DNA of 64,000 bases from an uncultured Bacteroidales bacterium (GTDB lineage Bacteria; Bacteroidota; Bacteroidia; Bacteroidales; UBA932), in the NCBI GenBank assembly GCA_947167015.1, contig CAMVGM010000003.1, positions 1-64,000 on the forward strand, given 5' to 3'. A program made the position numbers and the translations under genes. This document shows, in pieces, positions 1,886 through 7,469 of the stretch (within the stretch, counting starts at the first letter, position 1; the number at the start of each line of letters is the position of its first letter). Below the pieces are notes generated by a model. The model was not told where the DNA came from. It saw only the letters and a program-made list of their open reading frames with translations, and did no database searches.

Positions 1886-1917
1886 ATTGACCTGAAGGGG
1901 GCGGCCGCGTAATTTTG
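1886..1917 (+). promoter_or_regulatory. promoter of the porin-imelysin-cytochrome operon
   Basis: ATTG at 1886-1889 (one mismatch to TTTG), a 20-base spacer and TAATTTTG at 1910-1917 fit the Bacteroidetes -33/-7 pattern. The start codon at 1943 is 25 bases beyond the -7 box. A short dyad-like segment (ctaagaacttag, 1930-1941) sits between the box and the ATG. Confidence 0.7.
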
Positions 1918-1942
1918 CATCTCGGTTTCTAAGAACTTAGAG

Positions 1943-3223
1943 ATGAAAAATAGTGTGTGTGTTTTGCTTGGCCTCCTGCTGGCGGGCTTTCCGATGTCCG
2001 CCCAGGTGGCCTCGCAAGTTAATGGCCGCCTGACCGTCGGCGGTTACGGGGAAGTGGCGCTGACCCGGAATTTCTACAGCGACAACGTCTATCGTTATTC
2101 CCATCCTTCTGATTATAAAGACGATCCGTCACACGGCCGTTTCGACGTGCCGCACGCCGTCATTTACCTGGGCTACGACTTCGGCAAGGGCTGGACGATG
2201 CAGACCGAGATCGAATTCGAGCATACCGGCACCGGCTCCGCCGTGGAGAAAGAGTTCACCGAGGCGGGCGAGTGGGAGGCCGAGATCGAGAAAGGCGGCG
2301 AAGTGGAACTGGAACAGTTCTGGATCCAGAAGAGCTTCGCCCCGCAGCTGAACGTCCGCATCGGCCACCTGGTGGTGCCCGTGGGCGGCCTGAACAACGC
2401 GCACGAACCGCTGAATTTCTTCACCGTGTACCGCCCCGAAGGCGAATACACCATCCTTCCCTCCACCTGGCACGACACCGGCGTCAGCCTCTGGGGCCGC
2501 GCCGGCGCCTGGCGCTACGAAGCCCTCGTGATCGCCGGGATGGACGCCTTCATGTACGACCGCGACAATTTCATCAAGCACGGCGCCGGTTCGCCCTACG
2601 AGTTCAAGGTGGCCAACAACCTGGGCTTCGCCGCCCGCATCGACAATTACTCCGTCAAGGACCTGCGGCTGAGCCTGAGCGGCTTCTACGGGCAGGGGAT
2701 GCACAATTCCTATCCGCACGACATGTGGAACACCCGCTACGCCGGCATCAAGGGGCACACCGCCTTCGGCGCCTTCGACTTCGCCTACACGGGGCCGTAC
2801 CTGACCGTCCGCGGCAACGCCGACTGGGGCTTCGTGAGCGACGCCTCCACCATCAGCACGGTCAAGCGCAACCTCACGTCCGGCTCCGCCCCGTACCGGA
2901 AGACGCCGGTGGGCAAGGGCGCCTGCGCCGCGGGTATCGAGGCAGGCTACGACATCCTGCACCTCTTCAGCGGCGTCCGCGACAAGGAGCAGAAGTTCTA
3001 CCTCTTCGGCCGTTACGAATACTACGATTCCTATATCCCGGACAGCGACCAGCCGGACTATCCCTATACCGACCGGCACCGCATCGCCGTGGGCTTCAAC
3101 TGGCTGCCGCTGCCGCAGATTGCGGTGAAGGGCGAGTACTCGCACCGTTTCCTTCCCAGCCAGTACAACAACGAGCCTTCCGTGTCGGTGGGCGTCGCCT
3201 ATATGGGATTCTTTACCCGATAA
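1943..3223 (+). CDS. outer-membrane beta-barrel protein (porin-like)
   Basis: A 426-residue protein with a signal peptide (cleavage near AQVASQ, residues 20-25) and alternating strand patterns throughout. It ends in an aromatic residue region (VAYMGFFTR), as many outer-membrane barrels do. The N-terminal GGYGEVALT and the segment with RIGHLVVPVGGLNNAHEP resemble phosphate-selective (OprO/OprP-like) porins, but substrate cannot be read from sequence. It is the first gene of an operon with an imelysin lipoprotein 21 bases downstream and a di-haem cytochrome, which suggests it passes the metal or small ligand handled by them. Confidence 0.8.
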   Translation: MKNSVCVLLGLLLAGFPMSAQVASQVNGRLTVGGYGEVALTRNFYSDNVYRYSHPSDYKDDPSHGRFDVPHAVIYLGYDFGKGWTMQTEIEFEHTGTGSAVEKEFTEAGEWEAEIEKGGEVELEQFWIQKSFAPQLNVRIGHLVVPVGGLNNAHEPLNFFTVYRPEGEYTILPSTWHDTGVSLWGRAGAWRYEALVIAGMDAFMYDRDNFIKHGAGSPYEFKVANNLGFAARIDNYSVKDLRLSLSGFYGQGMHNSYPHDMWNTRYAGIKGHTAFGAFDFAYTGPYLTVRGNADWGFVSDASTISTVKRNLTSGSAPYRKTPVGKGACAAGIEAGYDILHLFSGVRDKEQKFYLFGRYEYYDSYIPDSDQPDYPYTDRHRIAVGFNWLPLPQIAVKGEYSHRFLPSQYNNEPSVSVGVAYMGFFTR

Positions 3224-3244
3224 TCACTTAAAAAACAAACTGAT

Positions 3245-4465
3245 ATGAAAAAGTTCCTTTCTTTGATTGCCCTGGCCGCCCTCTGTGTGGCGGCGGCATC
3301 CTGCAATGGCAACGGCCGCGAGACCGGCGGCCTGAGCGACGCTGAAAAAGCGATGAAAAACGTAGCGGCCCAGTATGTTCCCGGCGTGATCTACGCCACC
3401 TACGGCGACCTCGCCAAGGAAAGCGGCGAACTGTACGACCTGCTCGCCGCGGCCGCGGTCAAGGGCCCCGGCAAACTCAGCCAGGGCGACGTGGACGCCA
3501 TTTGCGCCAAATTCCTCCAGGCCCGCCAGAGCTGGGAGGAGTCCGAAGCCTTCCTGTTCGGCGCCGCCACGGACTTCGGCATCGATCCGCACATCGACAC
3601 CTGGCCGCTGGACGTGGACGGCCTCGCCACCGAACTGTCCAACGCCGAGAAGGTAGAGGCCCTCAAGGGTGAGGACGGCATCGCCTACGCCGCCGCCAAG
3701 CTGGGCCAGGAACTCCTGGGCTTCCACGGCATCGAATTCGTCCTCTTCCGGGACGGCAAGAACCGCACGGTGGCCGCCCTGCAGGGCAACGAGGACCACG
3801 ACGCCTTCGCGGGCAAGACCGTGACCGGTGCGCAGGAACTGATCTACGCGGCCGCCGTGGCCGGCGACCTGCGCGACAACTGCTACCGCCTGTGCGTGTC
3901 CTGGAACCCCGCATCTCCGAAGGCCTACGTGGACCGCTGCGAGGAACTGGAAGTGGCCGTGACCGTGACCGGATCCGACCTGAGCTACGGCGAGAACCTG
4001 CTCGGCGCCGCCGAGGCTGGCAGCTCCTACAAGACCTGGCAGAGCGCGATGGCCTCCATCCTGAAGGCCGGCTGCTCCAACATCTGCGCCGAGGTGGCCG
4101 ACGTGAAGATGGGCAACGCCCACACGGGCGAGGACATCAACTACATCGAGTCCCCGTACAGCAAGCAGTCCTTCCAGGACTTCATCGACAACATCCTGAG
4201 CATCCAGTACAGCCTCTACGGCAAGGCCGGGGCGACGAGCGCGCAGGCCGGCAGCCTGATGGACTTCTTCGCCACGCAGAAATACAGCGGCGCCACCGCC
4301 CTCCAGCAGGCGCTGGACGCTTCGCTCGCCGCGCTCAAGGCCTGCAAGGCCAAGGGAGCCTTCGTGGACATCTACGCCGACGCCTCCGTGCAGAAGGCGA
4401 TGGACGAGATCAGCGCCCTGGACGACGAGATCAACAAGGCGGCGGACTGGATCCTGAGACAGTAA
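3245..4465 (+). CDS. imelysin-family (peptidase M75) lipoprotein
   Basis: A 406-residue lipoprotein: lipobox AASC with Cys20, then an alpha-helical imelysin fold. The family's hallmark GxHxxE appears as GFHGIE at residues 159-164. Imelysins (IrpA, ICMP, EfeO relatives) are iron-regulated envelope proteins thought to bind metal; a proteolytic role is doubtful. The gene lies 21 bases after the porin and 13 bases before the di-haem cytochrome gene, in the same orientation. Porin, imelysin and di-haem oxidoreductase genes occurring together is a known pattern in iron-responsive loci. The specific ligand is inferred, not shown. Confidence 0.9.
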   Translation: MKKFLSLIALAALCVAAASCNGNGRETGGLSDAEKAMKNVAAQYVPGVIYATYGDLAKESGELYDLLAAAAVKGPGKLSQGDVDAICAKFLQARQSWEESEAFLFGAATDFGIDPHIDTWPLDVDGLATELSNAEKVEALKGEDGIAYAAAKLGQELLGFHGIEFVLFRDGKNRTVAALQGNEDHDAFAGKTVTGAQELIYAAAVAGDLRDNCYRLCVSWNPASPKAYVDRCEELEVAVTVTGSDLSYGENLLGAAEAGSSYKTWQSAMASILKAGCSNICAEVADVKMGNAHTGEDINYIESPYSKQSFQDFIDNILSIQYSLYGKAGATSAQAGSLMDFFATQKYSGATALQQALDASLAALKACKAKGAFVDIYADASVQKAMDEISALDDEINKAADWILRQ

Positions 4466-4478
4466 AAAAGCATCTGCC

Positions 4479-6203
4479 ATGAAACACACTATTTTGAACC
4501 TTCTCCTTCCGGGCGCCCTGGCGCTGCTTGCCAGCGGCTGTTTCCCGGAGTCTTACGATACCCGTTTCGGGGACGACAAGCGGGAATCCGACGCCAAGTA
4601 CGTCGGGCAGGCCGTCGGCAATTTCTCGGCGGAGGAATGGTATCCGGGCGGTGTGCTCGGCACCACGGACAACGTGACCGAAGGCTGCTATGAAGACGAG
4701 ACGCCCGCCACGGAGCAGCAGGGCCTGATGCAGGCCTTCAACCTCGGCGAGGCGGCCTTCGAGCGCAACTTTACGATCAATACCGCCCCGTTCAAGGGCC
4801 TCGGCCCGGCATACCTGCGCACCTCCTGCCTGGACTGCCACCCCGGCTACGGCCACGGCAAGCGCCAGCCGTACTACAAGGCCGGCTTCGGCAACGGCTA
4901 CCTGCTGGTGGTCTATCACCCCGCCGACGGGGCCAACAGCGATGACGGCCCTTACGTGGCCGAGGTGACCGGCATGCCGCAGACCAAGGCGGTCGCCCCC
5001 TTCCTCCCGCCCATCGACGAGGACAAGATCCGGATGGACTGGCTGCCCGTCACCGCCATGGAAAGCGGGCTGCCGATGACCTTCCCGGACGGGGAGCGTT
5101 ACGAACTCATCTACCCGGAACTCTCCATCCCCCAGGATGCCTTCAACACCGACCCGACCCCGTATGAGACCGGAAACCAGGCGGTTGCGTTCCGCCTCGA
5201 GTCCACGATCGGCATCATCGGCACGGGCCTGCTGGACGCCATCCCCGAAGAGGACATCAAGGCCCAGTACCAGGCGGAAGCCCCCTACGTGGAGCTGAAC
5301 CCGGCCTTCTGGGACAAGGAAGCGAATGATTTCGCCCCCACGGCGTGGTATTCCCTGGCCGCCGGGCAGTTCGCCGACGGCACCCCGGCCCCCGCGGGCA
5401 CCAAGAAACTCAAGCGCTTCACCTATGCGATGACGCGCGCCTCCCTGCAGGACGGCGCCGGCGCCAACGCCATCTGGAACATCACCAACGTCAGCCGCGC
5501 CGACCGCCCCTTCCTCTACACCACCAAGGCCTGGGCCAAGGCGATGTCGGAGAATGCGGGGGTGATCGCCGCGATCCAGAAGGACCCGTCTTCCCCGTAT
5601 TATGCCGACGGCACGCCCGAAGGCATCGCGGACGCGGTCCTGCACCTGCTGGACCCTTCGACCAACCAGTTCGACAACGCCTGGCACAACTTTACGCCGG
5701 AGATGAGCGACGACCAGTACTACAATTTCCTCGTCTGGCACCGCGGCCTGTCCATCCCGCGCGCCCGCGACCTCAACCGCAAGGACGTCCAGCGGGGCAA
5801 GCAGGTGTTCACGGAGATCGGCTGCGCCAGCTGCCACCGCCCGTCCTGGAATACGAAGTCCGACAACTACTGGGCGCCGGCCATCGTGGACGGCAAACCC
5901 TTGCCGCGCTACGAAAACCAGACCATCTGGCCTTATACCGACATGCTCCAGCACCGCCTGTACATGAAAAACGGCATCCACGGCAGCTGGTGCCGCACCA
6001 CCCCGCTCTGGGGCCGGGGCCTTTCGAAGGCCAACACCGGCGCCGAGGACCGGCTTCACGACGACCGCGCCCGCAACGTGATCGAAGCCATCATGTGGCA
6101 CGGATATAGCAAGAAAAGCGATGCCTACCCGGCCACGGAAAAGTTCTACAAGCTCTCCAAGGAGGACCGGGAGGCCGTAGTAGCCTTCATCGATGCAATC
6201 TAA
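4479..6203 (+). CDS. di-haem oxidoreductase-like c-type cytochrome lipoprotein (DUF1111/DHOR family)
   Basis: A 574-residue lipoprotein (lipobox ASGC, Cys21) with two haem-attachment sites, CLDCH at 117-121 and CASCH at 449-453. Spacing and length fit the DUF1111 'putative thiol oxidoreductase' family, related to MauG/bacterial di-haem peroxidases. It would act outside the inner membrane, on the periplasmic or surface side. It follows the imelysin gene and its last codons overlap the start of the CcsBA gene, which supplies the covalent haem attachment it needs. The electron donor or acceptor is unknown; oxidising or reducing iron during uptake is a reasonable inference. Confidence 0.9.
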   Translation: MKHTILNLLLPGALALLASGCFPESYDTRFGDDKRESDAKYVGQAVGNFSAEEWYPGGVLGTTDNVTEGCYEDETPATEQQGLMQAFNLGEAAFERNFTINTAPFKGLGPAYLRTSCLDCHPGYGHGKRQPYYKAGFGNGYLLVVYHPADGANSDDGPYVAEVTGMPQTKAVAPFLPPIDEDKIRMDWLPVTAMESGLPMTFPDGERYELIYPELSIPQDAFNTDPTPYETGNQAVAFRLESTIGIIGTGLLDAIPEEDIKAQYQAEAPYVELNPAFWDKEANDFAPTAWYSLAAGQFADGTPAPAGTKKLKRFTYAMTRASLQDGAGANAIWNITNVSRADRPFLYTTKAWAKAMSENAGVIAAIQKDPSSPYYADGTPEGIADAVLHLLDPSTNQFDNAWHNFTPEMSDDQYYNFLVWHRGLSIPRARDLNRKDVQRGKQVFTEIGCASCHRPSWNTKSDNYWAPAIVDGKPLPRYENQTIWPYTDMLQHRLYMKNGIHGSWCRTTPLWGRGLSKANTGAEDRLHDDRARNVIEAIMWHGYSKKSDAYPATEKFYKLSKEDREAVVAFIDAI

Positions 6204-7398
6204 GACACTCAAGATCCTGAGCTACGGCTCCATGGCGGTCGTCATCGCGATGATGATGGCCGCCACGTTCGTGGAGCGCCTCCACGACACCGACACGGCC
6301 CTGCGGGTCATTTATCACAACCCCGTTTTCTTCGTCCTGTGGGCGGTGGCGGCCGTTTCCGGCTTCGCGCTCCTGCTGCGCCAGGGCGGGGCGAAGCGCC
6401 CGGCGACCCTGCTGCTGCACGTCGCCCTGCTGCTGATCCTCGCCGGGGCGCTGATCACCCACCTGGGCGGGAAGAGCGGCAGCATCCATCTCCGCGAGGG
6501 CGTGCCGAGCAGCGCGCTGGAACTGGACGACGGGACCTCCGACGTCCTCCCGTTCTCGCTGGAACTTAAGGAGTTCCGCATTGAGTACGACCCCGGCACC
6601 GAGAACGTTTCGGATTACGTTTCCGAACTGGTGTGCGAGGGGGAACCCGTCACCATCTCGATGAACCATATCCTCAAGCACGACGGCTGGCGCTTCTACC
6701 AGGCGGATTACGACGAGGACGGGGCGGGCAGCATCCTGGCCGTGAGCCGGGATCCCTGGGGCGTGGGCGTCACCTACGCGGGTTACCTGCTCCTGCTGGT
6801 CGCGATGATCGGCTATTTCTTCCAGCGGGACAGCACCTGGCGGCGGGCGCGGACCGCCCTGCGCGGGCCGGAGAAGGTCCGGCGCCGGCGCGCGCTTCCC
6901 TGGGTGCTCGCCGCGGCCGGGGCCGCGATGCTGGCCGCCTGGCTCATCAGCGTCTTCCCGAAAGGACCGCTGATGCCGGTGCTGCGCTCCCCCCTGCTGT
7001 TCATCCACATGCTCCCCATCATCGTCAGCTACGCGCTGTTCGGGCTGACAACCCTGCTGGGCCTGGTGGGCCTGTTCGTCCGCGAGAACACCTCGGAACG
7101 CCTGCGGAACGTGAGCCTGCGGGTGCTGTTCCCGGCCGTGTTCCTGCTGACCTTCGGAACCTTCCTGGGGGCCGTGTGGGCGAACATCTCCTGGGGCAGC
7201 TACTGGGCCTGGGACCCCAAGGAGACCTGGGCGCTGGTGACCCTGCTGGTCTATTCCTTCGCCCTGCACGCCGACACGCTGCCGGTGCTGCGCAAGCCGC
7301 GCGTCTTCCATCTGTTCTGCGTGCTGGCCTTCCTGGCGGTGCTGACGACCTATTTCGGGGTCAACCTCTTCCTGGGCGGGATGCACAGCTACGCATAG
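6193..7398 (+). CDS. ccsA: compact CcsBA-type cytochrome c synthase (System II)
   Basis: A 401-residue polytopic membrane protein. Residues 1-215 form a short ResB/CcsB-like part with two early membrane helices, a periplasmic domain and a third helix. The C-terminal half is CcsA-like with the haem-handling WGSYWAWDPKETW motif near residues 332-346 and flanking membrane His residues (IHMLP, ALHAD, GGMH). It attaches haem to CxxCH sites of exported apocytochromes. It is much shorter than typical fused CcsBA proteins (often 600-1000 residues), and it overlaps the cytochrome gene by 11 bases, suggesting translational coupling to its client. Confidence 0.88.
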   Translation: MQSKTLKILSYGSMAVVIAMMMAATFVERLHDTDTALRVIYHNPVFFVLWAVAAVSGFALLLRQGGAKRPATLLLHVALLLILAGALITHLGGKSGSIHLREGVPSSALELDDGTSDVLPFSLELKEFRIEYDPGTENVSDYVSELVCEGEPVTISMNHILKHDGWRFYQADYDEDGAGSILAVSRDPWGVGVTYAGYLLLLVAMIGYFFQRDSTWRRARTALRGPEKVRRRRALPWVLAAAGAAMLAAWLISVFPKGPLMPVLRSPLLFIHMLPIIVSYALFGLTTLLGLVGLFVRENTSERLRNVSLRVLFPAVFLLTFGTFLGAVWANISWGSYWAWDPKETWALVTLLVYSFALHADTLPVLRKPRVFHLFCVLAFLAVLTTYFGVNLFLGGMHSYA

Positions 7399-7437: not shown

Positions 7438-7469
7438 TTTGGACCTTCGAAAGCATTTTTTTATATTTG
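7438..7469 (+). promoter_or_regulatory. promoter of nfeD-floA
   Basis: TTTG at 7438-7441, exactly 20 bases, then TATATTTG at 7462-7469: a full match to the Bacteroidetes -33/-7 consensus, 21 bases before the nfeD start codon. Confidence 0.85.

Follow-up and report, generated by a model that had tools for sequence, protein, structure and literature searches.

A porin-imelysin-DHOR gene unit linked to an unusually short System II cytochrome c synthase in uncultured Bacteroidales

The locus described here raises the question of whether a module resembling known imelysin operons carries its own cytochrome c synthase and whether a synthase of only 401 residues could still do this work. The window, the whole 64,000-nucleotide stretch of DNA analyzed, derives from a 2.46-Mb bin (108 contigs, 78% complete). 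The closest relatives of the bin that bear a name belong to the uncultured rumen Bacteroidales, and the broader set includes Candidatus Cryptobacteroides. At positions 1943 to 7398, four open reading frames (ORFs) on the forward strand encode a porin-like barrel, an imelysin lipoprotein, a di-haem oxidoreductase (DHOR, formerly DUF1111), and a fused synthase, CcsBA. The intergenic gaps are 21 and 13 bases, followed by an 11-base overlap between the DHOR and CcsBA genes (6193 to 6203).

1827-1862, +: terminator-like hairpin of the upstream gene, 16 pairs followed by a T tract
1887-1917, +: operon promoter, Bacteroidetes-type -33/-7 (TTG-N20-TAnnTTTG)
1943-3223, +: porin-like outer-membrane beta-barrel protein, 426 aa (low-confidence model), conserved first gene of the unit
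3245-4465, +: imelysin lipoprotein, 406 aa (PF09375, E value, 1.8e-36; lipobox AASC)
3719-3736, +: GxHxxE motif (GFHGIE) of the imelysin, from the sequence
4479-6203, +: DHOR lipoprotein, 574 aa (PF06537; E value, 9.7e-33)
4827-4841, +: first CxxCH of DHOR (CLDCH), invariant among aligned homologues
5823-5837, +: second CxxCH of DHOR (CASCH), invariant among aligned homologues
6193-7398, +: minimal fused System II cytochrome c synthase CcsBA, 401 aa (ResB PF05140, E value, 4.8e-21; Cytochrom_C_asm PF01578, E value, 2.2e-29)
7439-7469, +: promoter of the following unit (nfeD-like/floA pair), marking the operon end

A preliminary description had placed the four genes behind a single promoter, and the signals identified agreed with this. 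The promoter at 1887 to 1917 is preceded by the hairpin, which was by far the longest stem in a scan with a high chance level, and the next promoter begins only beyond CcsBA. Six promoters of the TTG-N20-TAnnTTTG type were observed in the window, compared with 0.08 expected; no RNA regulators were found within it. Just upstream of the operon (859 to 1800) lies a 313-residue lipoprotein-like ORF with no Pfam or NCBIfam match, which is kept in the nearest relative (L159).

Pfam matches and inspection of the sequence also upheld the gene identities first proposed, together with the 11-base overlap. The second protein carries both the PF09375 domain and GxHxxE of the imelysins (M75, ICMP/IrpA-like), and since this motif sits mid-protein, the domain is in canonical order rather than circularly permuted. 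PF06537 and two CxxCH motifs are both present in the third protein, and the two motifs were found in every intact DHOR copy examined. The porin-like protein of the window had no Pfam match and no PDB sequence match; its model formed a barrel (pLDDT 53) whose best PDB structure matches were generic OmpF-type porins.

A check of related genomes found the porin-imelysin-DHOR-CcsBA order conserved throughout the genus ("Cryptobacteroides"-like) and in other Bacteroidales families (G056 and G053). The same order was present in a record titled Prevotellaceae (L228), and the unit was present, without a porin match in its stretch, in a record titled Mediterranea (L230). DHOR was identified in 86 of 300 genomes of the genus, and a CcsA-type match in 84 of these 86 versus 100 of the 214 others (Fisher P = 1.6e-19, which overstates independence because the genomes are related). 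The linkage is not universal. Eight genomes, inspected for lacking a strong CcsBA match, carried porin-imelysin-DHOR without a linked CcsBA and had only a distant CcsA-type match elsewhere (loci L174 to L181, from G033, G096, G180, G212, G186, G235, G189, and G073; in L179 the porin is off the contig). In four of these eight loci, an acetyltransferase-like protein, a small membrane protein, a TonB-type receptor, and a rhodanese-like protein occupied the place of CcsBA. Conversely, CcsBA was present with DHOR not nearby, or only as a remnant, at L205, L202, L259, L210, L211, and L216. At a further locus (L164, from G141), a 76-residue C-terminal DHOR remnant (6534 to 6761) lies directly before an intact short CcsBA; here, judging from the sequence, the client seems to have been deleted and the synthase kept.

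The interpretation that we favor, and regard as likely, is an outer-membrane imelysin/EfeB-like redox module co-transcribed with a reduced CcsBA that loads DHOR with haem. Small solutes would enter the periplasm through the porin; two lipoproteins, the imelysin and the di-haem DHOR, would act jointly on iron or an iron compound; and the reduced CcsBA would attach haem to both CxxCH motifs of DHOR.

Whether DHOR is the only client was assessed across the genome contigs (78% complete), in which a PF01578 search returned one gene, the CcsBA of the window. CxxCH pattern hits showed no excess (89 versus 119 for the reversed-pattern control). Reading of the stretches around each hit left DHOR and one other lipoprotein, on contig C17, as the only plausible secreted cytochromes.

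G000 contig C17:21614-22945 (L072, L277): PD40 beta-propeller lipoprotein with one CxxCH

NrfA was considered as a hidden client and rejected, as it was found in 5 of 300 genomes of the genus and not in G000. The expectation of a sole synthase among few cytochromes was thus sustained in part: PF01578, CxxCH, and NrfA searches agreed with it, but the PD40 lipoprotein is a second CxxCH protein. Members of this PD40-CxxCH family occurred in 88 of the 300 genomes, often in several copies, and CxxCH was kept in all 30 copies read. A CcsA-type gene was present in 79 of the 88 and in 105 of the 212 others (P = 8.7e-12). At the thresholds used, 52 of the 300 genomes had a CcsA-type gene and neither DHOR nor a PD40-CxxCH protein.

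These data bear on a strong contender, which we stop only just short of accepting: that CcsBA is a general synthase, the cell's only one, serving both DHOR and the PD40-CxxCH lipoprotein, and that its place in this operon reflects DHOR being the main client. The retained CxxCH of the PD40 family, its co-occurrence with CcsA-type genes, and the presence of CcsBA without DHOR in several genomes all argue for it. However, a PD40 homologue was not found in 8 of 16 short-form genomes, while DHOR sequence was found in 15 of the 16, a comparison blurred by genome incompleteness. The terms "dedicated" and "self-contained," applied to the module at the outset, proved too strong because of the second CxxCH lipoprotein, the copies of CcsBA without DHOR, and the eight triples without a linked CcsBA. 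The enzyme is best called the only synthase found in the cell, linked to DHOR, its probable main client. Under the favored interpretation, it would probably also load haem onto the cell's one other CxxCH lipoprotein.

The role of the module in iron metabolism is suggested by analogy with imelysin/EfeB systems. An imelysin lipoprotein and a DUF1111 di-haem protein are shared with PA4370-PA4373, the Bacteroides ovatus imelysin PIBO, and EfeUOB, and operons regulated by Fur or iron bring imelysin and EfeB/DUF1111 genes together (PMC3143127). In comparison with these operons, the unit in the window adds a porin and a cytochrome synthase, and no EfeU permease was found among the ORFs and Pfam matches of the four-gene operon. 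It is also possible, although we lean away from it, that the module does not serve iron uptake and that DHOR is a di-haem peroxidase or periplasmic electron sink with the imelysin as its partner or assembly factor. Pfam calls DHOR a putative peroxidase, imelysin-like proteins with crystals in hand showed no specific binding of haem or ferric iron (PMC3143127), and the operon lacks an EfeU-type permease. Set against this are the Fur or iron regulation of characterized imelysin/EfeB operons (PMC3143127) and the lowered level of an imelysin-like transcript in a Bacteroidetes mutant of an iron regulator (PMC9478572).

A search of 22 short- or long-form genomes for ferrochelatase yielded no match, and the controls were recovered; most of the 22 reach a completeness of 90% or more (0 of 19 such genomes with a match). 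Judged by gene content, the group does not seem able to complete haem synthesis by that route, and because no ferrochelatase was found, the haem used by CcsBA is probably scavenged or imported. The absence extends to the long forms and so does not on its own account for the shortened CcsBA.

To define what the 401-residue enzyme has kept, it was aligned to the CcsBA of Helicobacter hepaticus, with the naming of the haem-ligand histidines (TM-His and P-His) following PMC11322641.

6418-6420, +: H76, aligned to TM-His2 (H83 in H. hepaticus)
6838-6915, +: junction, residues 216-241, where periplasmic domain 2 (PD2) and TM5-8 (~250-350 residues) sit in long relatives
7006-7008, +: H272, aligned to P-His1 (H761 in H. 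hepaticus), invariant in 98/98
7192-7215, +: WWD motif core, W334-D341 (WGSYWAWD; W334, W338, W340, D341)
7267-7269, +: H359, aligned to TM-His1 (H858 in H. hepaticus)
7384-7386, +: H398, aligned to P-His2 (H897 in H. hepaticus), invariant in 98/98

The WWD motif, P-His1 and P-His2, TM-His1 and TM-His2, and the beta-cap domain PD1 are all present, placing the protein among System II synthases; PD1 was recognized by the PF05140 match and by an all-beta segment (residues 94 to 186) in the model. Residues 1 to 215 align with one end of the long form and residues 242 to 401 with the other; residues 343 to 727 of the H. hepaticus protein have no counterpart. The AF2 model (pLDDT 81) contained a single beta domain and nine probable membrane helices; its match to 7s9y had a TM score of 0.81, normalized to the query. 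Canonical fused CcsBA has 14 transmembrane helices and two periplasmic domains (PMC11322641, PMC10663686). From alignment and model, we infer that PD2 and TM5-8, about four helices, were lost; because these are missing, the protein is not a canonical member of the fused class. The H. hepaticus enzyme (7s9y/7s9z) shares the CcsB-CcsA fusion, four haem-ligand histidines, WWD, the PD1 beta cap, and core TM10-13, but has about 940 residues. Closer at hand, the long CcsBA that this operon encodes in other Bacteroidales (640 to 770 aa, e.g., G015 and G016), in most cases beside DHOR, keeps about 250 to 350 middle residues, and intermediates of 526 to 567 aa lack mainly PD2; both are about 40 to 69% identical to the 401-residue protein over the shared parts. 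Unfused CcsB-CcsA pairs resemble the short form in having a smaller periplasmic region with the beta cap only (PMC10663686), although they are two genes and CcsBA here is a single short polypeptide. In the favored interpretation, the reduced enzyme would operate with its beta cap, four core helices, WWD/P-His active site, and TM-haem ligands, and with nine predicted helices rather than 14.

The unusual shortness of CcsBA, remarked on from the sequence at the outset, proved real. CcsBA has 640 to 770 residues in most relatives, while end-to-end forms of ~400 residues with intact frames were found in 13 further species among those sampled from the genus (G307, G143, G132, G089, G223, G141, G105, G239, G069, G222, G306, G195, and G113), some with genomes 95 to 98% complete. 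Close relatives form a graded size series of about 770, 640, 550, 480, 400, and 330 residues. The N terminus is shorter still in G036 and G243, in which TM1-2 and TM-His2 are lost, and TM-His1 is replaced by Gln in the short CcsBA of G223. A 400-residue CcsA/ResB-like protein at 2879 to 4078 of L133 (G031), on a very long branch and with ~30% identity, is possibly another reduced synthase. The idea that the missing half is encoded elsewhere was rejected: it was not found in any of 12 short-form genomes searched, and long-form controls matched (4/4).

When 98 CcsBAs were placed on a quick tree using shared columns only, the window protein fell within a clade of eight short forms with a support of 100 (starred). 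The short state required six changes, of which the starred (well-supported) branches forced five; the exact number is soft because the tree has a few long branches. Since long forms are widely spread, the direction of change is taken to be loss, and CcsBA appears to have been shortened by a third or more in the lineage of the window and in several others. Within the window's clade, dN/dS was 0.17 to 0.37 for CcsBA and 0.10 to 0.14 for intact DHOR; between long-form pairs, the values were 0.085 to 0.23 and 0.03 to 0.14, respectively. These values indicate that the short CcsBA is under purifying selection while evolving faster than DHOR. Some relaxation is possible because its dN/dS is 2 to 4 times that of DHOR, versus 1.0 to 2.6 times in long forms. 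WWD and both P-His were invariant in all 98 CcsBAs, every short form included. A TM-haem histidine was missing or replaced in 7 of the 98 (3/25 short, 1/8 intermediate, and 3/65 long); these counts are too few to claim a loss of TM-haem ligands specific to reduced forms, and that idea was dropped.

That the short enzyme works is presumed in the favored interpretation. A bolder proposal, which we put forward tentatively and consider rather unlikely, is that the CcsBA of ~400 residues, arrived at independently on several occasions, works fully as a single-chain synthase. In these cells without ferrochelatase, loading of scavenged haem might then take place from the periplasmic side. If so, PD2 and TM5-8 would be dispensable, and periplasmic loading would explain the loss of TM-haem histidines in a few reduced forms with WWD and P-His unchanged. 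The opposite proposal, that the short CcsBA is decaying and no longer matures cytochromes, leaving DHOR as an apoprotein or with haem attached by another enzyme, is improbable. Its faster evolution relative to its operon partners and the ligand losses in G036, G243, and G223 could be read in this way, but dN/dS is well below 1, frames are intact in the 13 further species, and the active-site residues are invariant in every short form. In addition, no other CcsA-type gene was found in the genome, and both CxxCH motifs persist in each intact DHOR examined. An assembly artefact as the origin of the short ORF is hardly credible and was rejected, for although the source is a fragmented metagenome bin (108 contigs, 78% complete), the same form recurs in 13 other species, including those with genomes 95 to 98% complete.

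The components of the unit are known; what looks new is that a synthase is linked to the module and that CcsBA has been reduced repeatedly in nature. In a literature search that was thin on subscription journals, no paper was found that joined imelysin with cytochrome c biogenesis or described a CcsBA of ~400 residues. The finding bears on which parts of a System II synthase are required for haem transport and attachment, since the relatives amount to a natural deletion series run several times over. Because a graded size series exists among close relatives, a minimal synthase is directly testable, and the short CcsBA might serve as a compact tool to make c-type cytochromes. The linkage also suggests a rule by which cytochrome-dependent modules may be spotted in haem-scavenging gut bacteria.
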